From NCBI GenBank assembly GCA_030753015.1, contig JASMDC010000003.1, positions 62,001-126,000 of the forward strand: DNA of 64,000 bases. The letters are read 5' to 3'. The first letter of the stretch is position 1, and every line of letters starts with the position of its first letter. This DNA is from Candidatus Undinarchaeales archaeon (lineage in GTDB: Archaea > SpSt-1190 > JASMDC01). The position numbers and the translations under genes were made by a program. Under the pieces are notes generated by a model. That model had not been told where the DNA came from. It searched no databases and was given only the letters and a program-made list of their open reading frames with translations. This document shows, piece after piece, positions 4,085-54,000 of the stretch.

Positions 4085-4097
4085 CATTTATATGGTT
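4085..4097 (+). promoter_or_regulatory. TATA box of the 8-kb exported protein gene
   Basis: TTTATAT at 4087-4093 is preceded by a run of A (a possible BRE) and would place transcription start near 4115-4120, just before the GGTGATC at 4123-4129. The whole 3832-4123 stretch is clearly AT-richer than its neighbours and holds no gene I can support. Confidence 0.55.
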
Positions 4098-4132
4098 GCA
4101 ACCTACCACTTTCACGGGTACAGGTGATCACT

Positions 4133-14638: not shown

Positions 14639-15223
14639 ATGGAGCTCGCCGAGGCGCTGGCCACCCGGCGGAGCGTGCGCAAACTGGCCCCGGACCCCGT
14701 TCCACGAGAGATCATCGAGGAGCTTGTGAGCGCAGCGACCATGGCCCCAAACGCTCATAACTCCCAACCGTGGCAGTTCGTGGTGGTGGAGGAGATGCGC
14801 GAGGCCCTTGTGGACGCTCTGGCATCGAGCCTCAGAAGCGACCTCCTTGGTGAAGGAGAGGGTCCTGACGAAGCTCAGCGGATCGCGGAGGCCAAGACTG
14901 GACGGTTCCGACACCCGCCCACGCTCCTGCTCGTTTGTCTGGACGCACAGCGGATCAAGGCAAGCCCGCGTCACGACGCAGAACGGCTCCTGGCAGTGCA
15001 TAGCGTCGCAGCCGCCATCCAGAACCTACTACTGGCCGCCCATGACCGAGGTCTGGCCACATGCTGGTACTGCGCACCAGCATTCTGCCCCGAGACCGTG
15101 CGAAAGGCGCTGGACCTCTCACCCGGCGTTGAGCCCCAGGCCCTTGTGGCGCTAGGCAGGCCGGCAGAGGATCCCACATCACCCCTTCGCCGACCGCTTG
15201 CGGAGGTCCTGGTGTGGCGATGA
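14639..15223 (+). CDS. Nitroreductase-family flavoprotein, FbiB-like
   Basis: A 194-residue FMN-dependent nitroreductase-fold protein: an ATRRSVRKL phosphate-binding start, the APNAHNSQPWQF segment, a central RHPPTLLLVCLD strand, HSVAAAIQNLLLAAHDRGLATCWY and a VALGRPAED end. In actinobacteria the C-terminal domain of FbiB has this fold and reduces dehydro-F420-0. Here the gene is the first of an overlapping trio with cofD and cofC, and its TGA overlaps the cofD ATG. A role as a free-standing dehydro-F420 reductase is therefore a reasonable inference, but a separate flavin oxidoreductase role is not excluded. The start is leaderless relative to the TATA at about 14611. Confidence 0.8.
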   Translation: MELAEALATRRSVRKLAPDPVPREIIEELVSAATMAPNAHNSQPWQFVVVEEMREALVDALASSLRSDLLGEGEGPDEAQRIAEAKTGRFRHPPTLLLVCLDAQRIKASPRHDAERLLAVHSVAAAIQNLLLAAHDRGLATCWYCAPAFCPETVRKALDLSPGVEPQALVALGRPAEDPTSPLRRPLAEVLVWR

Positions 15224-16164
15224 CCCGGGCGTGCGTGCTTTGCGGGGGGGTGGGTGCGGCCCGTTTCCTCACAGGGCTCGTGCGTGTCATTTCCCCGGAG
15301 GATATCGGATGTATCGTGAACACTGGCGACGACATCGATGTATGGGGCGCGCGCGTATGCCCGGACGTTGACATAGTCACGTATACCCTTGCTGGGATCG
15401 TAGACCGGGACAAAGGCTGGGGCGTAGCGGGCGACACGTTCACGTGCTTGGAGACCATGGCGCGCTTGGGGGAGATGAACTGGTTCCGCCTCGGGGACGC
15501 CGATCTTGCCCTGTCCCTTGTACGCACTCGGTTACTTGGGATCGGACGCGAGCTTGAGGACGCGACCGCGGAGCTCGTCCATCGTTTGGGGATCGCAGTG
15601 ACAATCGTCCCCATGTCCAACGAACGTGTGGAAACGCACGTGACTACTCCCACTGGCGAGATGTCCTTCGAGGAATACTTCGTGCGTGAGGGGTGCCGGC
15701 CCGAGATGAGGAAAGTGCGTTACGCGGGCGCCGACATCGCCCGACCGAGCCGAGGTGCCGAGCGCCTCCTTCGTGAGTCCGAGGTCCTTCTCATAGCCCC
15801 CTCCAATCCGTTGGCCAGCATCGGCCCGATACTGGCCGTTCCCGGAATGCGTGAGCTCGTGGAGAGGTTCGACGGGCCGCGAATCGCTGTCAGCCCCCTC
15901 ATAGGAGGTAGGACGGTCAAGGGGCCTGCCGACCGGATGCTCCGCGCTGTCGGATTCACTCCGAGCGTGGAGGGACTGGCCACGTTCTACGACGGCCTCA
16001 TTGACGGATTCGTCATCGACGAGGTAGATTCCTCCAGCGCCCCCGAACTGGAGGGCCGGGGGCTCGCGGTTCACGCGCTCCCATCGCTCATGGACACGCC
16101 AGCCCGGGCAGAGGCTGTGGCCCGAGGGGCCCTCGAGCTCGCCAAGGAGGTCGGACGCCCGTGA
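15220..16164 (+). CDS. cofD: 2-phospho-L-lactate transferase (CofD)
   Basis: CofD transfers the phospho-lactyl (or phosphoenolpyruvyl) group from its GDP/GPP-activated form onto the riboflavin-like Fo to make F420-0 or dehydro-F420-0. The N-terminus has the family's LCGGVGAARFLTGL nucleotide loop and NTGDDIDVWGARVCPDVDIVTYTLAG, then GWGVAGDTF. Further on are IAPSNPLASIGPIL and SPLIGGRTVKGPADRM. Length (314) is normal. ATG 15220 overlaps the nitroreductase stop (ATGA), and the downstream GTGA overlap with cofC shows a coupled operon. A GTG at 15214 is an alternative start. Confidence 0.95.
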   Translation: MTRACVLCGGVGAARFLTGLVRVISPEDIGCIVNTGDDIDVWGARVCPDVDIVTYTLAGIVDRDKGWGVAGDTFTCLETMARLGEMNWFRLGDADLALSLVRTRLLGIGRELEDATAELVHRLGIAVTIVPMSNERVETHVTTPTGEMSFEEYFVREGCRPEMRKVRYAGADIARPSRGAERLLRESEVLLIAPSNPLASIGPILAVPGMRELVERFDGPRIAVSPLIGGRTVKGPADRMLRAVGFTPSVEGLATFYDGLIDGFVIDEVDSSSAPELEGRGLAVHALPSLMDTPARAEAVARGALELAKEVGRP

Positions 16165-16766
16165 ACGGCTGCATCCTGGTACCAGTCAAGGGCTTCCGCA
16201 AGGCCCTTGGCAAGACGCGTCTCGCGGAATCCTTCAGACCCGCTGAACGGGCAATACTCGTTGAAAGCATGGCCGAGCGCGTTGTGCGGACGGCGTCTGA
16301 GGTGGCCCCCGTATATCTCCTCGCACGTGAGGATCCGCCCCCAAAGGTCGCAGCCCACGTGTACGACACCCTCGTCGATTTAGGGCGGGGCCTGAACGCA
16401 GAACTTGAGGCCGCGATTGACACCCTCCTTGCTAACGAACATGACAGGCTCCTCGTACTCCCAGGGGACATCCCCCTAGTGACGACCTCGGTCCTTGAGT
16501 GCGCTCTTCATCAGCTCGATGACCATGATGTCGTCGTGGCACCGGCAACAGATGGCGGGACCGCGCTCCTCGGTATACGATCGCCGCGACGGTCGAGGAT
16601 GCTGTTCGGAGAGCGGTCGAGCTGTAGGGCACATGCTGAAAACGCCCAGGATCATGGACTTTCCGTTTTTGTACTGGACAGCGAGGGTCCTCTCCTGGAC
16701 GTGGACACGGCTGATGATGTCGTCCTTGTTCAGGATGAGCTCTCTACTACCGAGAGATGCCGGTAG
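16161..16766 (+). CDS. cofC: 2-phospho-L-lactate guanylyltransferase (CofC)
   Basis: CofC/FbiD activates 2-phospholactate (or phosphoenolpyruvate or 3-phosphoglycerate, depending on lineage) with GTP for use by CofD. It is a MobA-like nucleotidyltransferase: N-terminal ILVPVKGFRKALGKTRLAE, a middle LLVLPGDIPLVT with the metal-binding aspartate, APATDGGTALLG, and a C-terminal LLDVDTADDV. The GTG start at 16161 overlaps the cofD TGA. The 3' end overlaps the convergent cofH by 37 bases. Family membership is clear; which three-carbon acid it uses cannot be decided from sequence alone. Confidence 0.93.
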   Translation: MNGCILVPVKGFRKALGKTRLAESFRPAERAILVESMAERVVRTASEVAPVYLLAREDPPPKVAAHVYDTLVDLGRGLNAELEAAIDTLLANEHDRLLVLPGDIPLVTTSVLECALHQLDDHDVVVAPATDGGTALLGIRSPRRSRMLFGERSSCRAHAENAQDHGLSVFVLDSEGPLLDVDTADDVVLVQDELSTTERCR

Positions 16767-17764
16767 AGAGTATCGCGTCGAATGGGTCGACGCCCCGCCT
16801 CCCTGGCAAGCGCAGCCAGGGACTCTGCGCTCATAGCCTGACCGTTGCGTCCTCCTGCCAGCCGCGTGATGTTCTCGGCCCCGAGAGTGCCGCCCAGATC
16901 GTTGCCGCCCCAGTCGAGGGCCTTGGCGGCCGTCCCCCGGCCGAGCTTTACCCAGGAGACCTGGATGTTGGGGATGAGGGGGTGGAGGACCAGACGCGCA
17001 GCGGCCACCATCAGGAGGTCAGCGGCCGTTCCAGGTGACTTGATGCCCCGCTCCCGGAACAGTGGCGTGTTCGGGGAAATGAAGGAGAGGGGTACGAACT
17101 CAGTGAACCCGCCCGTCTCCTCTTGGAGATCACGGAGAAGGTAGAGGTGCTCCAAGCGCTCGTCCCACCCCTCGCCGATGCCATAGAGCATGGTGCACGT
17201 TGTTGGGATGCCCTGTTCGTGGGCCGAACGAACCACGTTTAGCCATTCTGCAGTACCGAGCTTCTCAGGACAAACTTCCTTACGGACATAATCAACAAGC
17301 ACCTCGGCCGCTGTACCCGGCATGGATCCAAGGCCCGCCCGCTGTAGTTCCTTGAGGACCGCCTCGACGTCCTCTCCCGTCTGACGAGCCGCGTGGACCA
17401 CCTCCTGCGGGGAGAAAGCGTGGATGTGGATGTTAGGTGCGGCCTTCCGAACGGCCCGCACTATGGCCACATAATACTCAAGGAAGAGGTCAGGGTGAAG
17501 CCCGCCCTGGATACACACCTCCGTGGCGCCGTCCCTAGCCGCGCAACGTGCCTCTTCCGCCACGTCCTCGACAGAGCTCAGATATCCCTCGCGGTTCGCG
17601 AAAGCACAGAACAGGCATGTGTTGATACATACATCAGTGAAGTTGATATTACGATTAACCACGAATGTGACATCATCTCCAACGGCCTCCGCTCTGAGGG
17701 CGTCGGCCATTCTCTGCGCCTCGACCGGACGGGTGATCAGACGTCGGACATCCTCGCGGTCCAA
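16730..17764 (-). CDS. cofH: Fo synthase subunit 2 (CofH), radical SAM
   Basis: CofH joins the tyrosine-derived 4-hydroxybenzyl radical to 5-amino-6-ribitylaminouracil, the first half of Fo assembly. The radical SAM signature is in the typical CofH context NRNINFTDVCINTCLFCAF (C-x3-C-x2-C), followed by CIQGGLHPDLFLEYY, HAFSPQEV, GLGSMPGTAAEVL and LGRGTAAKALDWGGNDLGGTLGAENI, all conserved in CofH. GTG 17776 overlaps the cofG stop, but a GGTGATCC ribosome site spans the junction and is better placed for TTG 17764. It is cotranscribed with cofG. Confidence 0.93.
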   Translation of the reverse strand: MDREDVRRLITRPVEAQRMADALRAEAVGDDVTFVVNRNINFTDVCINTCLFCAFANREGYLSSVEDVAEEARCAARDGATEVCIQGGLHPDLFLEYYVAIVRAVRKAAPNIHIHAFSPQEVVHAARQTGEDVEAVLKELQRAGLGSMPGTAAEVLVDYVRKEVCPEKLGTAEWLNVVRSAHEQGIPTTCTMLYGIGEGWDERLEHLYLLRDLQEETGGFTEFVPLSFISPNTPLFRERGIKSPGTAADLLMVAAARLVLHPLIPNIQVSWVKLGRGTAAKALDWGGNDLGGTLGAENITRLAGGRNGQAMSAESLAALAREAGRRPIRRDTLYRHLSVVESSS

Positions 17765-17768
17765 AGGA

Positions 17769-18800
17769 TCACCCACAGCATGACACCTCTTGGGCTAGGG
17801 CGAGCACGCGGGGAGCGAGATGGGTGGGAGTAACGTACTGCTCCCGGACAGGGAGCCTGCGGGAGAGGACAAATCCGGCTTCGTCGCACACGACCCCGAG
17901 CTCGTTAAGAGTGGGCCATGACCGGTCCGGATTAATGAAGTCCGGCGTCACAGGCGATACGCCGCCAAGGTCATCTGCTACGGCCATGGCGCGCATGAGA
18001 AGATCCTGAGAAACAAGATTGGGGGGGATCTGGATGCTGACGTCGGGCGGGAGGTTAAGGCGGGCCATTGCTAGGGTGTCGAGGACCACCTCATCGGTGG
18101 GAGACGGCACGTCCTCCATCGGTGTTCCCTCGTTAGGGGCGAATGGCTGGACGATGACCTCTTGGATATGGCCATAGCGCGCATGGATGTCAGCAATCAC
18201 CTTGAGCGTCTGCTCCCGTTCGAGGCGCGTTTCGCCGATACCCACGAGGATGCCTGTAGTGAAGGGGATGCCTTGTCGTCCTGCTGTGGCGATATGAGCG
18301 AGCCGAAGGGTGGGGACCTTCCCGGGGCATCCATTATGCGGCCCGCCCGGGCCCCCTAGACGCTCGCTGGAGGTCTCTAACATGAGTCCCATGCCCGCAT
18401 TCACCTTTGCTAGCGTCTCGAGCTCGTCCGCGACGAGGACACCCGCGTTGGTGTGGGGGAGCAGGCCGCTCTCCAGCGCCCGGCCGGCCAGGTCAGCAAG
18501 GAACTCCACCATTCTGTTGTATCCCCACTCCTTGAGCTTGTTTCGCACGTATGGGTCAGAATCCGACCGCTCACCAAGTGTGAAGAGCGCCTCTGTGCAT
18601 CCCGCCCGAGCAGCACGTTCTATAAGATTCCGGGCCTCACTCGGTGAAAGCACCCTGGGGCGATCGTCCCCGCGTACCCGGAATCCGCAGTAAGCGCAGT
18701 TATTGACGCAGGCTGTAGTGACCGGTAGGAAGGCGTTCGACGATACAGTCACCCGGCGGCCGAACGCTTCCTGTCGGCGCCTACATGCGGCCTCCCACAT
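17769..18800 (-). CDS. cofG: Fo synthase subunit 1 (CofG), radical SAM
   Basis: CofG completes the deazaflavin ring of Fo after CofH. The radical SAM motif CVNNCAYCGF (C-x3-C-x2-C) is preceded by SSNAFLPVTTA. Other conserved stretches are EALFTLGE, GYNRMVEFL, LLPHTNAG, GLMLETSSERL, GIPFTTGILVGIGET, VQPFAPNEGTPM and PPNLVS. Length (343) is normal for the stand-alone archaeal form, whereas actinobacteria fuse CofG and CofH. ATG 18800 sits about 27 bases from the TATA at 18824-18831, consistent with a leaderless message that also covers cofH. Confidence 0.95.
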   Translation of the reverse strand: MWEAACRRRQEAFGRRVTVSSNAFLPVTTACVNNCAYCGFRVRGDDRPRVLSPSEARNLIERAARAGCTEALFTLGERSDSDPYVRNKLKEWGYNRMVEFLADLAGRALESGLLPHTNAGVLVADELETLAKVNAGMGLMLETSSERLGGPGGPHNGCPGKVPTLRLAHIATAGRQGIPFTTGILVGIGETRLEREQTLKVIADIHARYGHIQEVIVQPFAPNEGTPMEDVPSPTDEVVLDTLAMARLNLPPDVSIQIPPNLVSQDLLMRAMAVADDLGGVSPVTPDFINPDRSWPTLNELGVVCDEAGFVLSRRLPVREQYVTPTHLAPRVLALAQEVSCCG

Positions 18801-29007: not shown

Positions 29008-30828
29008 TTATTCTCCGGCAAGGCGGTCGAGCACGAACCGCATCTCAGCCCTGGCGAGGACGGTCTGCAATCCCGAAGCATCGTCCCGGGTCAGGCAGAG
29101 GGCCGTGACCCCGCATGACACCAGGAACCGTAATAGGTCGGGGTCGTGGCTGTCCCACAACAGGGTACAGGGAAGACCTGTCGCCCGGCACGACCGGGCC
29201 ACCGAGGCCAGAGCGTTGCGGATCGCACCGTTCGTCTCCAACGCCTCGCGCCCGTATCCCGGTGCGAGGTCCGGGAAGAGCGACTCGCCATCGATGAGAA
29301 CTCCGTCAACACCGGCGGCGCATACGTCCTCGATAAGCCAGAGGGAGAGCGGTGAGGCGAGCTGGACCCATACCGCGACCTCCACACCCGCATCATCGAG
29401 GGCATCCAAGGCAGCTTCGAGACCTTCCATGGAGGATATCCCCTGGAGCACCGCGGTCACTCGCTTCGCATCGGTAAGAGCCGCCAGCACCCGGTTCGTC
29501 GCCGTCGCCAGGGCGGCCGGATCGTGCGCGTCCACACCGACCAGCACCTCGCGGTCTGCTGCACCGTCCCTGATCAGCGCCTCCAGCGCTTCGGTCGCGC
29601 GTACCAGCACAGCGTCCGACCACGTGGCAGGAGCACTTCCTGCTTGCAGGAGCTGGAGCAGGAGCGTGCCCGTGGGGGCCACGCCACCTTCTGAGGGGAC
29701 GGTCGGTGCGGGCGCAGGTGCGACGATCGGTGTGCCCATGTCCAGCGTTGGTACCGGTGCAGGCATATCTGCGAGGATGTCCAGAGAGGCGAGCCCTGCG
29801 AAGCCGGTCTCGGCAGCGGGTGCTGCAGCCGTCTGCGCCTCGACGGGAGACGGTGCATCGGGAAGACGCTTGACCCCCGTGACCGCGAGACGCCCGCGAT
29901 AGGCGGCCCAGCCCAGCTCCAATGGGCCGTCGAGCACGCTCTCCAGTCGTCGTGCCAATCCCGCCACCTCCGTCACGAGAGGATCGGGGAGCTTCTGGGC
30001 CTTGGCCTTGGCGGCACCGAGCGCCACACGACCTGATCGCTCCAGCCGTTCGCAGATATCGTCGCGCACGAGCTTGTGGCTCTGGCGTCCCACGGTGCGG
30101 GACACGATATCCATCGAGTCACGGTCGATCCGATACAGGTCACCCACCACGTCGCCACCGCACAGGATAGGGGTTAGACCCGCAACAGCTTCGATCTCAA
30201 GCATTCCCTGGTCGTCGTTGGCCTGGGAACGGACCACGCCAGATACGTCGGATGCGACCATCTTCTGGACGATGACGGCAACGTCAAGAGCAGGCTTCGT
30301 GGCCTGGACGGGGATGAGCGATGGTTCGAACCGTGTTGCCCAGCACCGCTTGACAGCCTCCATAAGGTCGTTCTCGCCCTTGACATTGAGGAGCGCGGAC
30401 CCTTCGTCATCATCGGGGAGGGAGGAGCGGACCGCCACGAATGAGAGGTTCCGGTTCATGACCAGGCCCTTGGTGGACTTGGGGATCTCGCTCAGTTCCT
30501 TACCATAGCTCATGCGCTCGTACGCTTGCCTGATAGGGGTCACCAGCTCTCGTGGCATGTCCGCTTTAGCGATCTCGGCCATGATGCGCCTGGAGTTGTC
30601 CTCCACGGACGCCAGGTCAGTGGTGTCCACCTTGGACAGGAGGGCTGCGATCCGCTTACCAATGCCGTTGTGGGCGAGGAAGGAGTGGAACATCCCCGTA
30701 GGGAGCACGAATCCGGGGGGGACATCGATCCCCTCCCGTAGGATACGATCGAGGGTCCGGGCCTTGCGCCCCACCATGGTCGTCGTCTGTCCCCCGAGCT
30801 CACCGAGCATCACTACGCTGTCTGTCAT
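29008..30828 (-). CDS. PEP synthase-like protein without His domain
   Basis: A 606-residue protein whose N-terminal ~320 residues match the nucleotide-binding PPDK_N domain of phosphoenolpyruvate synthase (GGQTTTMVGRKARTL, FVLPTGMF, VAVRSSLPDDDEGSALLNVKG, VIVQKMVASDVSGVV). The last ~200 residues resemble the PEP/pyruvate-binding TIM barrel (VWVQLASPLSLWLIEDVCA, FLVSCGVTALCLTRDD). The central phosphohistidine swivelling domain, normally marked by a T-x-H-A motif, is missing. A Pro/Ala/Thr-rich linker (about residues 325-395) takes its place. Without the His it cannot run the normal phosphotransfer in cis. It is divergent from the phosphoglycerate mutase gene and first of a minus-strand operon. 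Confidence 0.75.
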   Translation of the reverse strand: MTDSVVMLGELGGQTTTMVGRKARTLDRILREGIDVPPGFVLPTGMFHSFLAHNGIGKRIAALLSKVDTTDLASVEDNSRRIMAEIAKADMPRELVTPIRQAYERMSYGKELSEIPKSTKGLVMNRNLSFVAVRSSLPDDDEGSALLNVKGENDLMEAVKRCWATRFEPSLIPVQATKPALDVAVIVQKMVASDVSGVVRSQANDDQGMLEIEAVAGLTPILCGGDVVGDLYRIDRDSMDIVSRTVGRQSHKLVRDDICERLERSGRVALGAAKAKAQKLPDPLVTEVAGLARRLESVLDGPLELGWAAYRGRLAVTGVKRLPDAPSPVEAQTAAAPAAETGFAGLASLDILADMPAPVPTLDMGTPIVAPAPAPTVPSEGGVAPTGTLLLQLLQAGSAPATWSDAVLVRATEALEALIRDGAADREVLVGVDAHDPAALATATNRVLAALTDAKRVTAVLQGISSMEGLEAALDALDDAGVEVAVWVQLASPLSLWLIEDVCAAGVDGVLIDGESLFPDLAPGYGREALETNGAIRNALASVARSCRATGLPCTLLWDSHDPDLLRFLVSCGVTALCLTRDDASGLQTVLARAEMRFVLDRLAGE

Positions 30829-30855
30829 GGTATGAACCGATGGAGTGGAGGAGGT

Positions 30856-30921: not shown

Positions 30922-32511
30922 ATGAATTCACCCGTGCCCACACCCATGGGTGACGCCGTCCAGGCAGCCTACCGTCGGGGTGAGGACGATGAGGCCATGG
31001 AGCCGCTTGTGCTCGTGGACGGTGCCGGCCCACCTATCGGTCGCATCAAGGACGGCGACCATGTGATCTTCTACGACATCCGCGGCGAACGGGAAGTGGA
31101 ACTGACCCTGGCATTCGTGGACCCGAGGTTCCCCCACTTCCCGATCGAGCCCATGCGTGTGCCGTTCACGACCATGATCGAGTACCGCAGCGACCTCCCC
31201 GTGTCGGTTGCTTTCCCGTCCCCCGGACGTCTGGACGACACGCTGGCCCACGTGGTCAGCAGGGCGGGCCTGCGCCAGGCACGCGTCTCCGAGTCGGAGA
31301 AGGCCGTCCATATCAACTACTTCTTCTCAGGCAAGTGCGAGAAGCCGCTCCCGGGGGAGGTACGCGAGGAAGTGCCCTCGCCCCGGGACGTGCCCTTCGA
31401 CACCGTCCCGCGGATGAACGCCGAGGGCGTCGCGGACGCAGTGGTCCGCAGGCTCAAGGAGCCGGACCTTGCCTTCATCACCGCCAACATCGCCAACGTG
31501 GACGTCGTGGGCCACATCGAGAACCGCGAGGCGATCGGGACGGCCGTTGCGGCCGTGGACGCCGCGGCAGGGCGTATCATCGAATCCGCACGAGCGGCCG
31601 GTGTGACAACGCTCGTGACCGCCGACCACGGTACCGTGGAGAGCTGGCTCTACTCGGACGGCTCGATCGATACCGGTCACACGAAGAGCCCGGTCCCTTT
31701 CGTGCTCGTCCCCCCCGAGGGCGCGCCCGAGGGGATCGCAATCAGGGACGGCGGCGAACTTGCTGACGTAGCGCCGACAGTCGCAGTCCTCATGGATCTG
31801 GAGACCCCCTCATCCTGGACGGGACGTCCGTTGCTTGCGGACAAGACTGTGCTCTCGCCCGGACGGGTGCTCCTCCTCATCCTCGACGGGTGGGGTGAGG
31901 GCGACAGCGGGGACGGCGACCTAATCGCTTCTGCGAGCACACCGGTCATGGACCGGCTCCGCTCGCTCTATCCCAACACCACCCTGTGCGCTGCGGGCGA
32001 GGCTGTGGGAATGCCCCCGAAGGCTGTTGGCAACTCCGAGGTGGGTCATCTTCATCTGGGTGCCGGACGCCGGATCCCGTCGGACCGTGTCCGCATCGAT
32101 ATGTCGCTTGCCGATGGGAGCTTCTTGGAGAACCCAGCGTTCCTCAACGCTGTGCGGGCCTCACGTGACGCCGGTACGGCACTTCACCTCCTGGGCATTA
32201 TATCGTTCTACTCCTCACATGGCTCCGTGCGCCATCTCAAGGCGCTGCTGGAGCTGGCGGCCCGCGAGCGCCATCCCGAGGTGTACGTCCACGGGATGCT
32301 TGGTAGGCGTGGCGAGCGCCCCGAGGCGGGTGCCGGTTACGTGCGCGATGTCGAACAGGATTGCGCCCGTCTTGGCGTCGGACGGGTCACTACCATGATC
32401 GGGCGCTTCTGGTCCCTGGACAGGGAGGAGAACTGGGACCGTATCGAGAAGACCTATGACGCCTTGGTCCGCGGCGTGGCACGGCACGTACCGGACGATC
32501 CCAAGGAGTGA
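30922..32511 (+). CDS. gpmI: Circularly permuted phosphoglycerate mutase (iPGM type)
   Basis: A 529-residue alkaline-phosphatase-superfamily phosphoglycerate mutase with its halves in reverse order. Residues about 10-305 match the C-terminal half of cofactor-independent PGM: GRIKDGDHVIFYDIR, HINYFFSGKCEKPLPGE, NVDVVGHIENREA, TADHG, HTKSPVPF, DGGELADVAPT. Residues about 315-525 match the N-terminal half: LLLILDGWGEGDSGDGD, KAVGNSEVGHLHLGAGR, HLLGIISFYSSHGS, GRFWSLDREENWDR. All expected ligands remain: D194, H198 and H253; D322, D235 and H236; catalytic S372. It should interconvert 3- and 2-phosphoglycerate. ATG 30922 is chosen over TTG 30832. Downstream is a kinase pair. Confidence 0.85.
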   Translation: MNSPVPTPMGDAVQAAYRRGEDDEAMEPLVLVDGAGPPIGRIKDGDHVIFYDIRGEREVELTLAFVDPRFPHFPIEPMRVPFTTMIEYRSDLPVSVAFPSPGRLDDTLAHVVSRAGLRQARVSESEKAVHINYFFSGKCEKPLPGEVREEVPSPRDVPFDTVPRMNAEGVADAVVRRLKEPDLAFITANIANVDVVGHIENREAIGTAVAAVDAAAGRIIESARAAGVTTLVTADHGTVESWLYSDGSIDTGHTKSPVPFVLVPPEGAPEGIAIRDGGELADVAPTVAVLMDLETPSSWTGRPLLADKTVLSPGRVLLLILDGWGEGDSGDGDLIASASTPVMDRLRSLYPNTTLCAAGEAVGMPPKAVGNSEVGHLHLGAGRRIPSDRVRIDMSLADGSFLENPAFLNAVRASRDAGTALHLLGIISFYSSHGSVRHLKALLELAARERHPEVYVHGMLGRRGERPEAGAGYVRDVEQDCARLGVGRVTTMIGRFWSLDREENWDRIEKTYDALVRGVARHVPDDPKE

Positions 32512-32516
32512 GCATC

Positions 32517-33536
32517 ATGACGGAACAGGACGCACGCATCGCACAGGACCTCGTACGACCGGAGGCCTTCCCCGAGGAGACCGGTCCCGCAACGTTGATC
32601 CAGACCCATATATCCTTCGTGTTCATCGCCGACGAGCATGTGTACAAGGTGAAGAAGGCCGTTGACTTCGGGTTCCTCGACTTCTCATCCCTTGAGAAGC
32701 GGAAACACTTCTGTGACGCTGAGGTGTCGCTCAATCGCCGACTGTCGCCCCACGTATACCTCGAGGTCGTACCGGTGACCGAGAGCGATGGTCGTCTCGT
32801 GTTCGGCGGGGACGGAGAACCAGTTGACTGGGCCGTTCGGATGCGCCGCATTCCCATGGATAGGCAGATGCTCAAATTGATCGAGGCAGGTAACCTTGTC
32901 GAGCCGGATGTACGTCGTGTGGCCGAGACGATAGCCAAGTTCCATCGTGAAGAACCGGTCAAGCCCGAACTGGCCAAGTTCGGCACACTCGAGACGGTGA
33001 AGTTCAACACCGACGAGAACTTCGAGCAGACGACAGGTTACATCGATCGCACGATCACCCGTGAGCAGTACGATGCGCTCAAGGGCTATACCGATAGATT
33101 CTATCGCGACAGGGCCGACCTTCTGGCCCGAAGGATCTCCGATGGCTTCGTCAAGGACTGCCATGGCGACCTTCATCTGGAGCACATAATCCTCACGGAC
33201 CCGGTGACGGTGTTCGACTGTATAGAGTTCAACGAGCGGTTCCGCTACTCCGACACCGCTGCCGACATAGCTTTCCTTGCCATGGAACTGGACTTCCGTG
33301 GCCGCCCGGAGCTCACCAAGGTGCTCATGGATGCCTATGTGACCGCCTCGGGTGATCCTGATGTGATGGGCATGCTCACCTTCTACAAGGTCTATCGAGC
33401 CTATGTGCGGGGCAAGGTCATCTCGTTCAGGCTGGACGATCCCAACATCCCGGAGGACGAGAAGCGTAAGGCCACCGAGAGCGCGTCACGATACTTCGAG
33501 CTGGCCCACTCCTATGTTGCGGAGGTACTTGCGTGA
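32517..33536 (+). CDS. Aminoglycoside-phosphotransferase-like kinase (COG2187)
   Basis: An APH/protein-kinase-like fold of 339 residues. Features are a VYKVKKAVDFGFLDF strand with the ATP-binding Lys, a helix with EVSLNRRL, the catalytic loop CHGDLHLEHI (H-G-D-x-x-x-x-H type), and VFDCIEFNERFRYSDTAADIAF, whose Asp would bind metal. In bacteria COG2187 is normally fused in one chain to the AAA-type kinase encoded here by the next gene, which starts inside this gene's stop (GTGA overlap). The natural substrate is unknown. A GTG at 32508 overlapping the mutase stop is an alternative start. Confidence 0.8.
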   Translation: MTEQDARIAQDLVRPEAFPEETGPATLIQTHISFVFIADEHVYKVKKAVDFGFLDFSSLEKRKHFCDAEVSLNRRLSPHVYLEVVPVTESDGRLVFGGDGEPVDWAVRMRRIPMDRQMLKLIEAGNLVEPDVRRVAETIAKFHREEPVKPELAKFGTLETVKFNTDENFEQTTGYIDRTITREQYDALKGYTDRFYRDRADLLARRISDGFVKDCHGDLHLEHIILTDPVTVFDCIEFNERFRYSDTAADIAFLAMELDFRGRPELTKVLMDAYVTASGDPDVMGMLTFYKVYRAYVRGKVISFRLDDPNIPEDEKRKATESASRYFELAHSYVAEVLA

Positions 33537-34099
33537 AAGCGCTCGTGATCGCCTGCGGGCTCATGGGCTCTGGAAAGAGCAGCGTCGCCCGTGCCCTCGC
33601 TGAGGTGCTCGCAGCCGATGTCGTCTCCTCCGACGTCGTGCGCAAGGAGCTTACCGATGTGGACCTCGATGAGCATCGGTACGTTGCGTTCGACAAGGGC
33701 ATCTACTCAGGCGACACGACGCGTCTGGTCTACGAGCACATGTGCGAACGGGCAGCGACATGGCTCAAGTCCGGCCAGCCAATCGTGCTCGACGCCTGTT
33801 TCGGGAAACGCTGGCAGCGCGACCTCGCCCGCACCACTGCTCTGCGGTACGGTGCTCCGTTCCTCTGTGTGGAGGTCACCTGCCCCCTCAGCGAGCTGAA
33901 GCGGCGGCTGGCCTCGCGAGAGGCGGACGGAACTGACGTGTCCGACGGACGGCTGGAGATCTTCGAGGAGCACAGGCGCAAGTTCGAGGCCATAGAGGAG
34001 CTGGCGGCACCCGAGCATCTGGTCGTGGATGGTCGGGATCCGCCGAAAGAGAACGCACGGTCGGCCCTTGTCGACCTCAGGAAACGCACGTCCAGGTGA
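33533..34099 (+). CDS. AAA/P-loop kinase (COG0645, gluconate-kinase-like)
   Basis: A 188-residue P-loop small-molecule kinase. It has Walker A (CGLMGSGKSSVARAL), a DVVSSDVVRKEL acceptor segment, a Walker-B-like PIVLDACF strand, an Arg-rich lid (KRRLASREADGTDVSD) and a C-terminal VDGRDPP. The GTG start at 33533 overlaps the TGA of the APH-like gene, so the two are coupled and together correspond to the two-domain fused protein known in bacteria. Substrate unknown. A hairpin follows before tRNA-Ala. Confidence 0.82.
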   Translation: MKALVIACGLMGSGKSSVARALAEVLAADVVSSDVVRKELTDVDLDEHRYVAFDKGIYSGDTTRLVYEHMCERAATWLKSGQPIVLDACFGKRWQRDLARTTALRYGAPFLCVEVTCPLSELKRRLASREADGTDVSDGRLEIFEEHRRKFEAIEELAAPEHLVVDGRDPPKENARSALVDLRKRTSR

Positions 34100-42056: not shown

Positions 42057-45000
42057 TTAAGGGTGGAATCCTCGGTAGTCGAGGTCCTCTTCCTCCTCGG
42101 TCTTCTTTGCCTTGGCATCGGACGTCGAACCCTCGTCACCGGGGTGCAGCCCCTTCCCGGGTGTGCTCGGTCCTGACACTGCACCGGGGTGCAGCCCCCT
42201 GGCCGCATCGCTCAGCTCCTCCTTGGGCTCCTCTTTCTTGGGGGGAGGTGCGGCTTGTTGAGCCTGTGCCTGCATGGCCTGTCCCTGCCCCCAGCCGCCG
42301 GCCTGCCCGCCCCACTGAGCGTTGTTCGCAGGCGTGGCGCGCCACGCTCCGCTCTGGCCGTAATACCCGCCGCCGCCATAGTACTGGTTGGCCATGTAGT
42401 TTGCCTGCTGTTGCTGCTGCCACGCACCCTGGGTCGCGACGGGGACTGCCTTACCGGGGAAGAACCGCCGTTTGACGGCCAGGAAGAGAGCACCGATGAT
42501 GACGATGACCTCGATGAAGTCCTTGATATTGGCCAGCACGCCGATCTGCTCGAGCACCGACTCCTGCTCGACCGCCACAACGACCTTGCGGATGATGGTC
42601 TTGTTGGGCAGCCCGCGCGGGACGGCGTTGATGATGATCACGTGGCTCCCGGGGATATGTCCCTGGACATCCACCGAGAGCGGGAAGGTGGCGTTCACGT
42701 CGATGTTCACCTTGAGGCGCTTGGTCCATGCGAGACCGACCAAAGTGGAATCGCTCTCGATGGTGATGTCGAAAGCATCGCGCAGGGAGCCGGTGTTCTT
42801 CACGGTGAAGGATAGGAGCTTGGTCTGCTTTTCCACCATAACGAGGGTTGCCTCGCTCTCGATCTCCGCGTCACAGATGCAGTCGGCCGAGTTGCGGCAG
42901 TTCTCACCGATGCCGGGAGCGCACTTCCGGTTGATGCAGTCATCAGGGGTACAGTCGACACGGCAAGAATCGCACTCCGTCGCCAGCTCGCACTCACCGT
43001 CACCGCACCCGCCACGACAGGAGTTGGTCTCAGGATCGCACTTCTGATTCCCGGGGCACTCACAATCGACGCAGCATGTTCCTGAGGTCTCGTCAGGGCT
43101 GTCACAGTGCTTGTCGCCGCACGCAATCCGATAGCACCCAATCTCGTTGGATTCGGGGCGCTGCGCGTCGCAGGTGAATCCGGGCATGCATGAGCAGTCC
43201 TTGGGAGCGCTAGCACAGTTCTCGCCCATGGACGTGTCGCACACCCCGTTGTTGAGGCAGTCCTTGATAGAGCAGTCCTGGGGACATTGGCCGCACTCGT
43301 TCTGACACTTGCCGTCACCGCACTCGGCCTTGGCGCACTTCTGGGATTGGTCGCAGGTGTACCCTTTCTCGCACATGCCTTCGCAGAAGCAATCTCCACC
43401 GCCGCTGCTCCGCACCATGCACTCGCTGTCCCCGTCGCACACACCCGTCTCACATGCCGAGCCGCAATCGCTCGCCTCGTAGATGCACTGGCCGAGGATG
43501 CACCGGTCCACGGAGCAGGCGTTCCCATCGTCGCATCCGCAGTCCTCGGGGCAGGTGTTGCAGTCCTCAGTGGCCTCGCACACATTGTTGGGGCACTCGG
43601 CGGTACAGGCATTGGTGGGGTCAGTGGGGCAGGGGTCCTCTGAGTCGGGCATACCGTCCATATCGCGGTCGGGCAGACAGCGGTCATCAGCACAGATGTA
43701 GGTGAACTCGAAGGCGGTCTTGCATGCCTTGTTCGAATCGGTCATGTTCCCACACCGCACGCACCGGGCAGCGGGATCGCAGATGAGCCCCATCTCGGCG
43801 CAGGACACCTCGGTGCCGGGCGTGCACACCGAGATCTGGCACGAGAACTCGATGTGGACGTTCTGGTGGCACATGTCCGTGCAGTCCTTGTCACCTTGGC
43901 AGGGCTTGCATGCGTTCTTTGGATCGCGCGGGCAGGGGTCCTTGTCATCGGCGAACCCGTCGTTGTCGTAGTCGGGCGCGCACCCGTGTGCCCATGTGGT
44001 GGTGGGATCACAGGTCTCCGTTCCCTTGCACTGGCAGTCCTGGGGGCAGTCGTTGCAGTCCTCTCCCTCGTCGCACTTGCCGTTGCCACACAACATCTCG
44101 CACCGGCCACCCTTGCACCCGAAATCCGTGCCGTAGGTGAGCGTGCAGTTGACATCCGACACACAGTTCACGCATCCCTCCCGGGTACAGATCCCACCTT
44201 CGGCCTTGCAGTCCTGCTCCGGTTTGTCCTGGCAGATATAGTTGTTGCACGACTGGCCGCGATAGATGTTCTGCTCGCAGGTGTACGGGCAGTTCTCGTC
44301 CTTGAAGCACTTGGCGACCTTGCAACCGAGGGTCTGGAAGTCGCAGGCGTAGTTCGCACCGTACTGTGCCTGGCACTGCTCGGTAGAGATGCACTGGAGG
44401 CAGCCTGTGGGCAGCTGACAGATCTGGTTGGAGCCGCCTGTGGAGCAGTCCTGGATGTCGGCACCAAGGATCTCGCACTTGAAGTTCTGGCAGGTATAGT
44501 TGAGGAAGGAGTAACGCTGGCACTGGTCCTCGCAGTGGGTGTCGTCCAGGCACTCCACGCATCCGCGATCCGAGTTGCACTGGAAGAGGATCTCCGAGCA
44601 GTCCGAGGACACAGCCTCGCACAGCCCGGTGTGGCAGGTATAGTTGAGGAAGGTGCGGCTACCGCCGCCACCACATTGGTTGGAGCACGGCGGGCTCGTT
44701 GCCTGGCAGTCGCCCACCTCATTGCACGTACCGGGAGCGTTGCTGTCACAGCAGATACTGCCGAAGGAGTTACAGGTGAGCTCACCGGTAGCGAGGTTGC
44801 AGCCTACGTTCCCACCACAGTCGAGGCGCCCGCAGTCCTTTCCGGGGAAGAAACCGGGACGCGGCGAGATGCAGGTGCCCGCGCAACAGAACCCACGGGA
44901 GTTCTCCGTGACACAGGGTGCCTCGTCAGGGAAGCACTCGGGCTTGCACAGCCATTCCTTGAGCGGATCGTCCACGCAGATGGGCTTGGAAGCGTCACAG

Positions 45001-48000
45001 TTGCGCACCTGACCGTTGGGGCAGGTGACCGCCTTGCTGCACTTCTTGGTACCGGGGTCGCACACGCTGTTACCACCGCACTCGCAGTCCTTCTCGCACG
45101 ACTCGCCCTCCTCCTTCGTCTTCTTCTCGACGCACGAGCCCAGCACACAGCACTGGGAAGTGCAATGGATATCCGACGTGCACCCCGTCATGCACGTTCC
45201 CACGGTTGGATCGCATATGTAGGAACCACACGAGTCCTCAGTGGGGATGTCGTACTCGCCGAGCTTTGAGCACTGGGTGGTCCGGGTTCGCCCTTCGTTG
45301 CACACGTGCCGCTCGAAGGTATCGCACAGCCACTCGCTCTCGCGGCACGTCACCTTCCCACCATCGCACTGGTTGAGACCGCACCCCCCGCCGGGATTCC
45401 ATTGGGCGCTGGACATGGCCTCGCACCCGTTGCCGCAGCAGAAACCACTGGTCCCCAGGTGCTCGCAGGCAGCAGCGCCGAAGGCCGAGCATGAGGCGCA
45501 GCGGTCGAGGCCCGTCTGGCCATCGATGTCGATGCAGGGGAACTGTGTCTGGCAGTCGATACTGGAGGCGCACGCCGTTCGGCACTGGCCCACCGAGGGA
45601 TCGCACGTATAAGGAGAGCAGTCGCCAAGGCTCGAGAACGCCCCCACGTTGCTGCACTGGCCCCGGAGTGTAAGGTCCGGCGAGCACACGGGATCACCAT
45701 AGGTATCGCACACCCACGAGTCATCCTCGCACTTCACAGCACCGTTGCAGTCCTGTTCACCGCAGCGGTTGGCGGGAGTCCACTCCGCTACGGGCGGTGC
45801 GTTGCAGGCATCGCCGCAGCAGAAGCCCGTCTTCCCGCCGAGGTCGCACACGGACGCCTCGTGGCCCGTGCAGGTGTCACAGGTCTCGGGGACACCATCT
45901 GTAGTGAGGTCGATGCAGGAATATGATGTGAGACAATGGTCGTTGGACACGCATGTGGTCCGACACTTACCTGTCGTGCCGTCGCACTTGTAGGGCACGC
46001 AGTTAGCGGCCTGGCCCGTGTTGAAGATGCCGGTCTGGGTGCAGGTGGAGGACTGGTCCTGGAAGCACTTGTACTGACCGGCGGTATTGCACTTCCAGTC
46101 ACCTGCGATGCACTTGACCTCTCCGTCGCACGGATTCTCACCGCACTCCGCCTCGGGGAACCATGAGAGATAGAGCATCCCCTTGCATGTTCCACCGCAG
46201 CAGTAACCCGAGAGGATATCCTCCTGGCACTTCCTCGATCCGTGCTTGTTGCATGTGGAGCACTTATCGAGCCGGCCGTTCCCATCGGTGTCGATGCACG
46301 TCAGTCCCGACTGGCAGTCGGCGTCTGAGATACAGAGCGCCCCTTCACCAGCCAGGTCCGTGCAAAGATGGGTGTTACGGTCACAGAATCCCGCCTCGCA
46401 CTCGCAGTCCTTGTTGCACGACTGACCACTGGGGAGCTTGGAGGAGTAGCACTTGTTGTTGCAGCACTCGCCCTCGCCCGCCACTGTGTAGCAGAGGCTT
46501 CCCTGAGCCATGCCCTCACACGAGTTGCAGGTGTCCACCTGCCCGTTGACGTCGCTGTCACGGCAGATCGGAGTACAGTGGTTGCCAACGCAGCATACGC
46601 CCGTCGTACCCTGTGTGTCGATGATCTTGTTACCATTGTCCTCAGCAGCGTCGCAGGTGCCGCACCGCCACCCATTGTTACCGGTCTTGTCAACGCAGTA
46701 ACCGGACTGACACTGATTGCCGTGCGTACAAGGCTGCCCGTCCACGTATTTACATGTACGCGGATTACCAGCGCACTTCATGTTGGTTGCGCACTCGCAG
46801 TCATTACCGCAGGGCTCGGTTACCCCCTTCCACCCCACGTTGCACAAGTTCGAGCAGCACTGCTTGATGACGCCGTTCTCATCGAGACAGCCCACGCCGT
46901 CCACGACGCAGTTCCCGCAGGTGTAGGCGCCGCTGGACACGCACTGGCCAGAAGAGCACAAGGCTGCTGAAGTACAGGTCTCGCCTGCTGAGAGCTTGCA
47001 CAGCCCGTTGTGGCACTCCGTGCCCACGTTGCACTCGCAATCACGCTGACACGGTGAGTTGATGGGTTTGGCGTAGATGCACTGGTTGTTGCAGCACCAG
47101 CCCTGGGCGAGCACATCGGTGGAGCAGGGGGTCTTTGCTAACATCCCCATACAGGTACCGCACGTACCGTCCACGCACACCTTGCTGGCGCAATCGCGGC
47201 CCGACTCGCACCCCTGGCCGTTGATCTTCTTACAGGTGTCAACGTTCGGTCCACCGTAGGTGTCGACGCACGTGAAACGGGTCTGGTCGCATACACAGTC
47301 CTTGCCGCACGGTGCGTTGAGCCCGCCCTTCTCGGGCGGGGTGATGCAGGTGGACGTGCAGCACTCACCCTGGATACCGGCCCCTTCATAGCATGTGTTG
47401 CCCTCGGTGCACGTCATGGCGCATTGGGTTGTGCCCGCATCGCAGATCTTGGCGCAGCAGGTGTCCCACGCCCAGGAGTTCCCGCATACCGAACCATCGA
47501 TACCCGCGGTGATCTTGCACGACATGCCGACAGCAGCCTGGTCGCACTGCCCGTTGGAGAGGCATACGCCGGAGGTGCAGTCAGTGCTCAGTGTGCACGT
47601 TTGGGCCTTCTTGAGCTTGCACTTCTTACCGATGCCCGTTTCGGTGCAGGCGAAGTTCTGGTGGCACTCGCAATAGCTGTCGCACGGTCCATCGAGCGCC
47701 TGCGGTGCCGCGCACTCGCCCCCGCAGCACCAACCGTCCGAGATGGTGATCGTCTTGCAGGCAGTGAAGTCATCGGTGTTGCACGTTCCGCAGATGCTCT
47801 CACCGGGGGCGCCCACGCACAGCCCCGTACCGCACTGATCGCCCGATGTGCAGGGCTGTCCGGCTGCCTTCTTGCATACAGCGCCGATGCATTCCATGTT
47901 CGATCCGCATTGGCACGTGAAGGTACAACCCTCTCCAAGGCCCTTGGGAGCCGTGCAGATGTTGTTGCAGCACTTACCAGAGGTGACGGTCGTGCTAGCG

Positions 48001-51000
48001 CACGAGGTGAAGTCCACGATGCCGGTGCAGGTGCGGCACGTGCCTGCGACGCACTGGCCAACGGCGCATTCGCCCGCGGTGACGCACGCCTGCCCGGCCT
48101 TCTTCTTGCATCGGTTGTCCTTGCATGTGAAGGTGGGATCGCAGTTGCAGTCGACCGTGCATCCCTCGTCCTGCCCCTTGTGCCGGTTGCATCCGCCGGA
48201 GCAGCAATAGCCGTCGTCAACGGTACCGGTCTTGCACTGGGTGTCGACGCTCTTGCCCCCACAAGAGCCGCACACGTAGTTACCACCAGCGGTCTGTTGG
48301 ACACACACGTCGCTAGCGCACTGGTCACCTGATATGCACGCCTCTCCGTTCTTCCGCTTACATTGGAATCCGGTACAGAGGAACTGATCCTTGCACTGGC
48401 AGTCCTCGGTGCAAGCGTCCCCCAGTTCGCCGGGTGAGACGCACTCGTCCGCGCAGCACCAGCCGTTGGCCACCGCCTGGGTGTCGCAGGCGTTCGTCTT
48501 GCCCTTCCCTACGCAGGTCCCGCACACATCGTTAACGCATACGCTGCTGGAGCAGTCCTCACCATGGATGCAGTTCTGACTGTTTTTGAGCTTGCAGAGC
48601 AGTCCCGTGCAGGAGTACTGGTCCTGGCACTGACAGTCGGCACCACATCCGGCGTCGAGCGCGCCGTGGGTCACGCATGCGCCCTCACAGCACCAGCCGT
48701 CGAGGATGGTGGCGGTCTTGCACTGGGATGAAATTGCCTTGCCGGCGCATGTACCACACGTACCGGCCACGCACACACCACTTGAGCACTCGGCCCCACT
48801 CGTGCATGTCTGGCCGTCCTTGAGCTTGCACTTATCACCTCCAGCATCATCGGTGCACGCCAGCGTGTTCTTGCATTGGCAGCTCTTGACGCAGGCCGCG
48901 TCAAGGAGCAGGAGTTCTCCAGGAGTGTAACAGGCGTCGGCGCAGCAGGATCCCTGTGTACCTTGGTTCTCGTAGCACACATGGTCCTCGACGCAGGTAG
49001 TCGTAGAGCATAGGTTGAGCCCTACGTCACAGATGGCATTACAGCAAACTGATCCGCACACTGTCCCGATGTTGGCACCGGCGATCTTGCAGATGTCGCC
49101 CGTGTCGTCAGGTCCACAGGTGCTATCGGTCCGGCATATACCGCTGGCGCACTGCCCGCTGTCCGTGCAGCTCTGGCCGTCGTTCTTCTTGCATTTGTTG
49201 CCCGCGCACTGCATACCCACCTTGCACTCGCAGTTCTGGACGCAGTCCTCTCCCGTCTCCTTCGGGCTGACGCAAGCACCGGCACAGCACCAGCCGTCGG
49301 AGAACGTCGGTGTCATGCACCCCGTGCTGATGTCGGTCTTTCCCACACAAGTACCGCATATGCCGCTCACGCAGGCGCCCGAGGCGCACGCGGTGCCGTT
49401 CGTGCATCCCTGGCCTGCCGCCATTCGACACTTGTTGTCCGTGGCTACGGCGCACTCCAGGTTCGCACCGCACTCGCAGTGCTCTTCACAGTCCTTCTCA
49501 TACCCCTTGCGGTCGGTCGTGAGGAAGCACTGGTCGGCGCAGCAGCTCCCGTACTTCTTAACACCGCTCACCAGCTTCATGCAGGCGTGTCCTAGGCCGC
49601 ATTCGTTGCATACATCGCTGTCGGAATCGCAGTACCCGTTACAGCACTCATCGTGGCAGACGAGCCCGTCGATGTTCGTGTCGACCTTGCAGAGGTCGCC
49701 CTGGCCCGAGTTCGTGGCGCAGGCGGCTCCACCGGCAGAGCACACCTTCGAGTCACAATCCGTGCTCTGGGAACAGGTCTGGCCTCCGGTGAGCTTGCAC
49801 AGTCCTATACCGAACGAACAGCTTAGCTCGGTATCGCCCTGGCAGTTGCAGTTGCCGGTACATACGCCGTTGAGGGGGACCGCGTCGACGCACTCGCCGT
49901 TGCAGCACCACCCGCTCTGCGTGTTGCCGGACTGGCACGACACCTTGTCCTGGGTGCACTCTTCGCACAGGCCGTCCACGCATATGTTCGTACCGCACTG
50001 GTTCCCCTGGGTGCAGGGCTGGCCGCTCTTGGTCTTGCATATTCCACCCGTGCACTCGAGCTGGGCCGTCTCATCGCACTCACAGGTCACCTGGCACACC
50101 TGGCCAAGGGGCTGCTTCTCCGCCTGGCGGATGCAATTGTTGTTGCAGCACTTCCCCTGCTGCCCGCCCTGGCCGCCGTCGCTCTCGTAGCAGGTGGCAC
50201 CCGCGTTCGCGCAATTTGCACCGCAGGTGTAGGGCGTGGTTCCCGTGTTGCAGGTGTTGGCGCAGCAGACATCGTTGCACACCGATCCTGCGTGAGTCCC
50301 TCCGAGCATGCACTTGGATCCCGTCGTGGGCGTCCCGCATTTGCCCGCCGCGTCGCAGAGCTCTGAGGAACATTGGGCGCTGTCCGTGCAGGTCTGGTCG
50401 TTCTTCAGTTTGCAGAGCTTGTTCCCTTCGGCCCCGACGCACTGCATCGTGGTCTCGCAGTGACAGTCCGAGGTGCATTGTGCGTCCAGCCCCTGCGGTG
50501 CCACGCACTGGACCCCGCAGCACCAGCCGTCGTCCACGCCATCACGGCTACATGTCGTGAAGTCGCTCCCCCCGCAAGCGCCGCACATCCCGTCCACACA
50601 CACACCGCTAACGCACTGGTCCCAGGAGGTGCAGGTCTGGCCGTCGACCTTCTTGCACTTCTTGTTCCCGACGGCCCCCGCGCACAGGTAGTTGTTCAGG
50701 CAGTGGCAGTCGGCGGTGCACGAACCGTCCAGACTCTTGGGCTCCACGCACTCAGCACCGCAGCACCAGCCCGTGAGGGCCCCTGCGCTGCACTCCTTCT
50801 TGGTGGTCCCGGCCCCGCATGTTCCGCACTTGTAGCTGTCCTGCGTCATCTCGATGCACACGCTGCTGGCACATTGGTTGCCCGCGGAACAGGTCCGGTC
50901 GTCCTTCAGCTTGCACGCAAGGAGCGTGCACACGAAATCACCCTTGCACTGACAGTCTGCGGCACAGATGCCGTCGAGCCCCTTACGCTCGTCTTCCGTG

Positions 51001-54000
51001 TAGCATCCCGTTTGGCAGCAGATGCCCGGGGTTCCGGAGCCCTCATAGCACTCCACCCAGACGTTGTTGCATGTATTGACGCAGGCCTTCGTCGCACCGA
51101 AGCAGAAGTTGGGCATCCCGCAGCATTGACCGCCGCAGGCCGTTCCCTTGGTACCGGGGTACTGGACGTAACACTTTGATGGGGATGTGAGCCCGCCGTT
51201 GCACACCTGGGGGTCCACGGCGCAGATGCTGTTGGCACAGTCCAGGCTCTTCTCGCAGGCCTGAGTCTCCTTGAGCTTGCAGAAGCCCTCGGTGCATTGA
51301 AAGGTCTCCTCACAGTAGCAGTCACTGACGCACGCCGCTCCTAGCCCTTGGCGTACCCGACAAGCATTATCGCAGCACAAACCGTTGAATCCGTCGCCCT
51401 CACATGCCACGCCAGCGTTCCCGGCGGTACATGCACCGCATTTATAGGTGCCGCCATCGCTGACGCAAAGGCCGGAGGAACACTGGGACCAGGAGGAACA
51501 GGTCCGACCGTTCTTGTACAGGCACTTGTTCCCCGTGCACGAGTACTCGGTCTTGCACTGACAGCCAGCGTTGCATGCATCGAACAGCCCACCCCGCTCA
51601 TCGAGCGTGAAACACTCGTTCTGGCAACATACTCCCTCTGTGCCGGCACCTTCGTAGCAGGTCGCACCGACCACCCCGCAGAGCACGACGCACTGGTCGT
51701 TGATGCAGAACGAAGGCAGCCCGCAACACTTATCCTGGCACACGGTCCCCTTTGTGGGATCGTCCATGAAACACTGGTTCGGACTGACCAGCGCCCCGTT
51801 GCACACGCCATCAAGGCTGCATAGCTTCTGGGAACAGTCGTCGCTCTGCGTGCAGCTCTGGCCCTCCTTGAGCTTGCACTTCTTCCCCGCCCCCGTGTCC
51901 GTGCAGCCGAAGGCCTCGCCGCAGTTGCAGTTCTGGGCACAAGCACCGTCCTGGCTGACCGGGGCAGTGCAGGCGCCGGTACAGCACCAACCGGTGACGC
52001 CATCAGCGGTGCAGTTGAAGCTCGTGTCCTTCCCGGCACAGCCTCCGCACACGTAGGCGCCGCCCGCTGTCCCCATGACGCACTCGCCGCTGGCGCACTG
52101 GGACCAGGTGGTGCAGGCCTCCCCGTCCTCCTTCTTGCACTTGTTCCCCGCGCACTGGAGCCCATCCTCGCATTCGCAGTGGTCCGTGCAGTCCTCGTCG
52201 AGTCCCAGGGGTGTGACACACTGGTTGAGGCAGCACCAGCCTGTGGCGGTCTCCGATTTACATGCATAGGTCAGGTCCTTCCCATCACAAGTGCCGCAGG
52301 TGTAATCGCCACCAGGTGTAGCCTGGACACACGCACCGCTGGCACACTCCGACCAGACCGTGCACGGGCCGCCCACCTCCTTCTTGCACTTCTTGTTGTT
52401 CTCCGGACCCGTGCATATTAGGCCTCCCGTGCACTGGCATGTAACCGTGCAGGACTCGCCGGAAGGCAACCGCTCAACGTCACGGACACACCCGTCGTTG
52501 CAGCACTTACCTTCTTGGCCGCCCTGGGAGCCCACGGTCTTGTAGCAGGTCGCTCCTCCGATAGCGCAGCCCGTCCCGCAGGTGTCGGGATCGGTGCTAG
52601 TGTCGCAGATTGTGGCACAACAGGCGTCAGCGCACACGGTCCCCGAGGGATTGCCCGTGAGCATGCACTTGGAGCCCGTGGCAGGGGTACTGCAGAGGCC
52701 GCTCGCGTCGCAGAGACCTGAAGAGCACTGACCGCTATCAGTGCAGGCCTGTCCGTTGACCTTTCTGCAGGTCCTGCTACCTTCCTCTCCGGCGCATTCG
52801 GTGTTCTCGACGCACTGGCAGTCGGCTGTGCAGGCCGTGCCCACGTCGCCAGGGATTGAACAGGCGTTTGCGCAGCACCGCCCGTCAGCTATCCCATTGG
52901 CGATACAGGCTGTCCCGTCATTCCCTGTGCACGATCCGCAGGTGTCGTCCACACAAACACTGTTGGCGCATTCGGACCAGGTCGTGCAATCCTGACCGTC
53001 CACCCGCTTACACTTGGTGCCCGAACACTCGAAGTTTGCCAGGCAATGGCAGTCCTGCGTGCATCCACTATCGAGACCCGCGGGGGCGATACACTGGTCA
53101 TTACAGCACAATCCAATGATGCCCTCGGCCTTGCAGGCGAAGGTCGCGTCCTTGGCCTGACATGAGCCGCATACGTAATTACCACCGGCGGTCTGTTGGA
53201 CGCACACGACGCTGGCACACTCGTCCCAGGCGGTGCAGGGTTCACCTGCAGCAAGGCGGCACGTCTTGCTACCCTCCGGGCCACCGCATGCGAGCCCGTC
53301 CTGGCACTCGCAGGTCTCGGTGCATGAAGTGCCCGCGGCCTTTCTCTCAGCTTCTCGGACGCACTGGTCATTGCAGCATGCGCCCTGCTGACCTCCCTGT
53401 CCTCCGGCAGTCTCGTAGCAGGTCTCTCCAGCGGAGGCGCAGGCGGTATCGCAGGTGTCGGGTTCGGTTCCCGTGTCGCAGATGTTGCTGCAGCACGCTT
53501 CGTTGCACACTGATCCGGTCGGATTCCCAGAGAGCAGGCAAGCGGCTCCGGTAGCGGGCGTCCCACAGAGGCCTGTGGCAGCACAGAGCTTCGAAGCGCA
53601 TTGACCGCTATCGGTGCACGTCTGTCCCGCCTCCTTCTTACAGCCATCGGTAGTGCACTGCAGGTTGGTATTGCACTTGCATGCCACGCCCCCGCAGTCA
53701 CCGTCAAGGGCGAGAGGGGCGAAACACGTGTTCTGGCAACACCATCCGTCGGCCACACCTTCCTTGGTGCAGGCCGTGAGGTCGTCCTGGTCGGCACAGG
53801 TGCCACAGGCGCCGTCCACGCACACGCCGCTAGCGCACTCAGTCCCGACCGTACAGGTCTGCTCATTGGCCTTCAGACACTTCTTTGAACCTTCTTCCCC
53901 AACGCAGTCCAGGTTCGCCTGACAGTGGCAGTCTAGTGTACAGGATCCTTCCGCCGCTACGAGGACGATACATTCGTCATTGCATAGGGAATAGCCATCC

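Follow-up and report, generated by a model that had tools for sequence, protein, structure and literature searches.

Cofactor-independent phosphoglycerate mutase (iPGM, GpmI; TIGR01307) is a two-domain enzyme whose classical chain runs from a first part of the phosphatase domain through the transferase domain to a second part of the phosphatase domain. In the structures of the Bacillus stearothermophilus (Bst) enzyme, Arg153 and Asp154 contact the glycerate, and Asp154 is probably important for function. The wider family has a known precedent for recruitment outside glycolysis in the phosphonoformyl transferase PhpG (NF038358), which carries out a transfer on 3-phosphoglycerate. Central-metabolism enzymes with a natural circular permutation conserved across dozens of genomes are, to our knowledge, rare. 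In agreement with the initial annotation, which knew of no described natural permuted iPGM, we found no description of one in 5.39 million open papers, covering permutation of phosphoglycerate mutase, of its superfamily and of glycolytic enzymes, and a word search of a bacterial PGM survey (PMC2964296) gave no mention of a fusion or a changed domain order.

Here, we describe a gene from an archaeal draft genome, located in an analyzed stretch of 64,000 nucleotides (the window), in which the two halves of iPGM are exchanged. We favour, with some reserve, the explanation that it belongs to a conserved natural subfamily of permuted iPGMs that has kept the fold and chemistry of iPGM, has a changed substrate and most likely no longer serves as glycolytic PGM.

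Gene structure and permuted order

The gene, its parts and the two genes that follow it are as follows (all on the plus strand).

30922..32511, +, iPGM-like gene in permuted order, 529 codons and a stop, one open frame, 80 co-linear homologues
30952..31836, +, protein part 1, residues 11-305, equivalent to classical iPGM 218-509 (profile and phmmer alignment): remaining transferase domain (RGER, Bst R261/R264), then second phosphatase-domain part; within it metal ligands D194, H198, D235, H236 and H253, and also K127
31837..31863, +, linker, residues 306-314, bridging the old C- and N-termini; length variable among homologues
31864..32481, +, protein part 2, residues 315-520, equivalent to classical iPGM 5-210 (phmmer, TIGR01307): first phosphatase-domain part (D322, nucleophile S372), then first transferase-domain part; within it transferase residues H433, GRRGE 461-465, R495 and R501
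32302..32316, +, GRRGE loop, residues 461-465, in place of the classical DGRD(V/T); Bst Asp154 is replaced by Gly464
32508..33536, +, APH-family (PF01636) gene, 4-base overlap with the mutase stop
33533..34099, +, AAA_33 P-loop kinase-like gene, 4-base overlap with the APH gene

An in-frame ATG at 30832 would lengthen the open reading frame; homologues begin near the ATG at 30922. The initial annotation had claimed that the C-terminal half precedes the N-terminal half in an unbroken frame and proposed an alignment to the B. stearothermophilus enzyme as a check, and both this alignment and the family profile bear the claim out. In phmmer searches, residues 11-305 match chain positions 218-509 of PDB 1ejj (B. 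stearothermophilus iPGM; 182 bits, with about 34% identity over this first part) and residues 315-520 match positions 5-210 (177 bits), such that the two stretches are out of order. Likewise, residues 11-305 correspond to positions 215-504 of the TIGR01307 model and the second half to positions 2-209. A normal domain order is ruled out by these alignments. The Pfam domains Metalloenzyme (98-294) and iPGM_N (392-522) are recognized; PF01676 Metalloenzyme (alkaline phosphatase superfamily) scores 184.7 bits against a gathering score of 24.3. The whole-protein TIGR01307 score of 431.9, which is the sum of the two out-of-order stretches, exceeds the cut-off of 330.65, and the NF003897 score of 353.9 stays below the cut-off of 862.

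Judged from these alignments, the gene is a true circular permutation of iPGM in a single frame. Instead of the classical order, its product runs from the remaining transferase domain to the second phosphatase part, the linker, the first phosphatase part and finally the initial transferase segment. The new termini lie in the loop after Bst position ~210, within the transferase domain and not at a hinge. The old termini are joined inside the phosphatase domain by a linker that measures 8-18 residues in nearly all homologues, mostly 8-14.

The permuted chain is expected to refold as a normal two-domain iPGM. Built from 50 permuted sequences, an AlphaFold2 model is confident (pLDDT 93.3, pTM 0.89), and its residues 7-307 superimpose on the 3-PGA-bound Staphylococcus aureus iPGM 4nwj with 291 residues aligned at 1.8 A (Z 22.4); since structure aligners follow chain order, this comparison covers the first half, and the fold of the second half is predicted from sequence. 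AlphaFold gave no usable model from the single sequence (pLDDT 36).

Distribution, origin and co-occurrence with other mutases

Scanning bacterial and archaeal genome contigs with the window protein yielded 127 related loci, 80 of which were kept. Every one of the 80 follows the permuted order within one open frame and covers the query from residues ~1-12 to 515-529, with 49-62% identity over the best segment. According to record titles, the permuted homologues derive from Chloroflexota (Anaerolineae, Ardenticatenales, Thermoflexales), Syntrophia (Syntrophaceae/Smithellaceae), other deltaproteobacterial groups, Aminicenantes, Fibrobacterota, Chitinispirillaceae, WOR-3/Stahlbacteria and Eisenbacteria. 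The initial annotation had named an assembly rearrangement as refutation, and the window does stem from a draft metagenome assembly (117 contigs, 5% contamination), in which two fragments of a normal iPGM might have been misjoined by an artefact of assembly or binning. Chance and assembly error are excluded because 80 independent contigs from many studies share the permuted order; moreover, the permuted proteins form one clade and the genome of the window has no classical iPGM copy, its only iPGM-type (TIGR01307) gene being the permuted one. A misjoin thus has a vanishingly small probability.

In a maximum-likelihood tree of 44 permuted proteins, rotated into classical order, and 34 classical proteins, all permuted proteins are on one side of a single branch (SH-aLRT 100; stem of 0.79 substitutions per site), for which a single origin of the permutation would be sufficient. 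This event presumably began with a tandem duplication in frame, after which both ends were lost; the old termini would thereby have been fused in the phosphatase domain, and new ones opened on a surface loop within the transferase domain. Long-branch iPGMs of classical order (548-559 aa; L098, L099, L100, L197-L200) co-occur with the permuted gene in their genomes.

The window protein is placed in a Chloroflexota-centred subclade (support 96). Homologues in permuted order, which the initial annotation had expected to be sought in archaea, were found in none of the other nine genomes of the same phylum, and the matches in further sampled archaeal genomes were either two stretches in classical order or weak, partial hits. 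Acquisition of the window gene from bacteria is the simplest reading, because the genome itself is archaeal, as indicated by its L15e ribosomal protein, yet the relatives in permuted order are bacterial; at 5% contamination, the contig may alternatively have been misbinned.

The permuted protein is not the sole PGM of its host in the genome of the window, which encodes a typical separate aPGM (448.7 bits, over cut-off) and a typical dPGM (393.6 bits), nor in most other genomes. Among 30 permuted-bearing bacterial genomes, 28 encode a TIGR00306 protein over cut-off, six a dPGM and five a classical iPGM. Typing of ten TIGR00306 proteins identified six as PRK04200/'proposed homoserine kinase' and four as PRK04135 aPGM; the remainder were assigned by score and sequence start. 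Another canonical PGM is thus present in about 27 of the 30 genomes, partly by score-based assignment; none was found in the draft genomes G072, G074 and G088.

A further sample was taken from a single phylum, that of G069, where 14 of 247 genomes carry the permuted gene (12 full-length, two at contig ends) and 136 carry classical iPGM only. Classical iPGM and PRK04135 aPGM are mutually exclusive in this sample (together in 0/136), and aPGM is present in 60 of the 97 genomes without any iPGM. Among the permuted-bearing genomes, however, six of 14 encode aPGM (versus 0/136; Fisher p = 2e-7, with related genomes that are not independent). Four of the other eight have a classical iPGM and one more has a dPGM; the draft genomes G238 and, as fragmentary cases, G131 and G263 yielded no further bona fide PGM. 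Some hosts without a bona fide second PGM carry PRK04200-type aPGM relatives. Classical iPGM replaces aPGM in the phylum sampled and the permuted gene does not; it behaves as an addition, not a replacement.

Active site, gene neighbourhood and possible function

The seven metal and serine ligands D194, H198, H253, D235, H236, D322 and S372 correspond to Bst D403, H407, H462, D444, H445, D12 and S62 and are invariant in all 81 permuted sequences, as are the substrate residues H123, R153, R185, R191, R261, R264 and K336 (Bst numbers). Bst Asp154 is Asp in 34/34 alignable classical enzymes and Gly in 81/81 permuted ones. The GRRGE loop, which is shared by all 81 permuted sequences and by none of the 34 classical ones, turns the net negative charge of the DGRD loop into a net positive charge that would suit a more anionic ligand. 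Two further signatures are without exception among the permuted proteins: the R-x-D-R motif at Bst 261-264 reads RGER, and the loop preceding His123 reads SSHG. From the conserved ligands, the initial annotation had concluded that the protein should be active with its new termini. The ligands are indeed all kept and the phosphatase-superfamily centre is intact, but PGM activity cannot be assumed because Asp154 is lost, the loop is changed and the hosts usually have other PGMs.

We propose that Ser372, once activated by the two-metal site (D194/H198/H253 and D322/D235/H236), would accept the phosphoryl group of a small phosphorylated acid via a phosphoserine mechanism, with the conserved Arg, Lys and His residues of the transferase domain forming a cage that holds this acid. 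The protein is most likely no longer the glycolytic PGM of the cell, because GRRGE replaces the Asp154 loop in every member and most hosts keep aPGM, dPGM or classical iPGM. A more likely role is that of a mutase, phosphotransferase or phosphatase within an accessory pathway, where its substrate would be a related phospho-acid, perhaps a more anionic one. In our reading, it is an iPGM paralogue that has been neofunctionalised and has spread horizontally, and we lean slightly towards the more far-reaching proposal of a new enzyme family, in which the substrate loop changed after the permutation, a new phosphoryl-transfer reaction arose and the gene spread horizontally across many bacterial phyla and into an archaeon.

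Against a changed substrate speaks that all phosphate- and carboxylate-binding residues except D154 are kept, such that PGA may still be the substrate. The permuted protein could accordingly be a fully active glycolytic/gluconeogenic PGM that is redundant with the PGMs of its host and in which Glu465 of the GRRGE loop, or a neighbouring residue, could substitute for Asp154. This would agree with the invariance of 14 of the 15 active-site positions checked, with a TIGR01307 score above the equivalog cut-off, with the few hosts that seem to have no other canonical PGM and with the presence of more than one PGM type in E. coli and other control genomes. The complete loss of Asp154 in the permuted proteins, whereas every classical enzyme keeps it, the missed NF003897 cut-off, and the exclusivity of iPGM and aPGM that is broken only by permuted-bearing genomes make such a plain PGM doubtful in our view, though it retains a considerable share of the probability, and we prefer the altered enzyme with a changed substrate.

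Gene neighbourhoods provide no common clue. A family-wide operon was searched for across the permuted loci, but none is conserved and no neighbourhood indicates one pathway; the neighbours in Syntrophia (LysM peptidase, Pcm, macro domain, IspD) form clusters that look lineage-specific, and a shared operon was therefore dismissed as a guide to function. In the window, the APH-family gene is probably co-transcribed with the permuted iPGM. The APH/AAA_33, PPDK_N and creatininase genes of the window have no counterpart at the other permuted loci. Placed divergently from the permuted gene is a gene for a 606-aa protein (29008-30828, -) in which the ATP-binding part (PPDK_N) of PEP synthase/PPDK is the sole recognized region and the C-terminal region is not recognized. 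Elsewhere, the window contains an F420 biosynthesis cluster (CofD, CofC, CofH and CofG at 15214-18800) and two very long open reading frames, 42057-54449 (-, 4130 aa) and 4124-12214 (+, 2696 aa).

At four loci, each of another lineage, sulfur genes adjoin the permuted gene directly: CysD and CysN/C with a sulfotransferase at L044 (Fibrobacterota; 2953-8739), an ATP-sulfurylase/APS kinase at L021 (3-2695), a sulfotransferase at L035 (6695-9572) that is orthologous and 65% identical to that of L044, and a CysQ-like phosphatase at L017 (8001-10369). Together with the positive charge gained through the GRRGE loop, they would be consistent with a role in sulfate activation or sulfation, e.g., on a PAPS-related or a sulfated/phosphorylated acid. 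However, a motif scan of the flanks detected sulfate-activation or sulfation genes at none of the other loci, including those of the window, Syntrophia and Aminicenantes, and the CysQ match is below its curated cut-off. The association concerns only four of 80 loci and came to attention post hoc; it is a lead and not a result, and we regard a function in sulfation as improbable.

Since this conserved permutation goes back to a single event and accompanies a fixed change in the active site, it can be used to test whether permuting an enzyme makes a new function accessible. The family is also a trap for annotation, as the permuted genes are likely misnamed GpmI, and counted as glycolytic PGM, because whole-protein scores exceed the TIGR01307 cut-off. 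This affects metabolic reconstructions of uncultured bacteria, despite the differing order and catalytic Asp.

Among known enzymes, aPGMs (TIGR00306/PRK04135/PRK04200) share with the permuted protein the alkaline phosphatase superfamily and the same metal core, but its score of 28.6 bits, from a partial match, is far from the TIGR00306 cut-off of 320. PhpG belongs to the aPGM branch and catalyzes another reaction, and the permuted protein has no match to NF038358. Similarity to iPGM (GpmI; TIGR01307; PDB 1ejj/1o98, 4nwj) extends over the whole length and includes the two-metal site, the Ser nucleophile, His123, the Arg cage and Lys336. In contrast to iPGM, the halves are reversed, Asp154 is lost, the GRRGE, RGER and SSHG signatures are present, and the proteins form a separate clade that co-occurs with other PGMs. 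The permuted protein is thus derived from iPGM and probably retains iPGM-like chemistry, while it departs from iPGM in two defining features, the order of its chain and Asp154.
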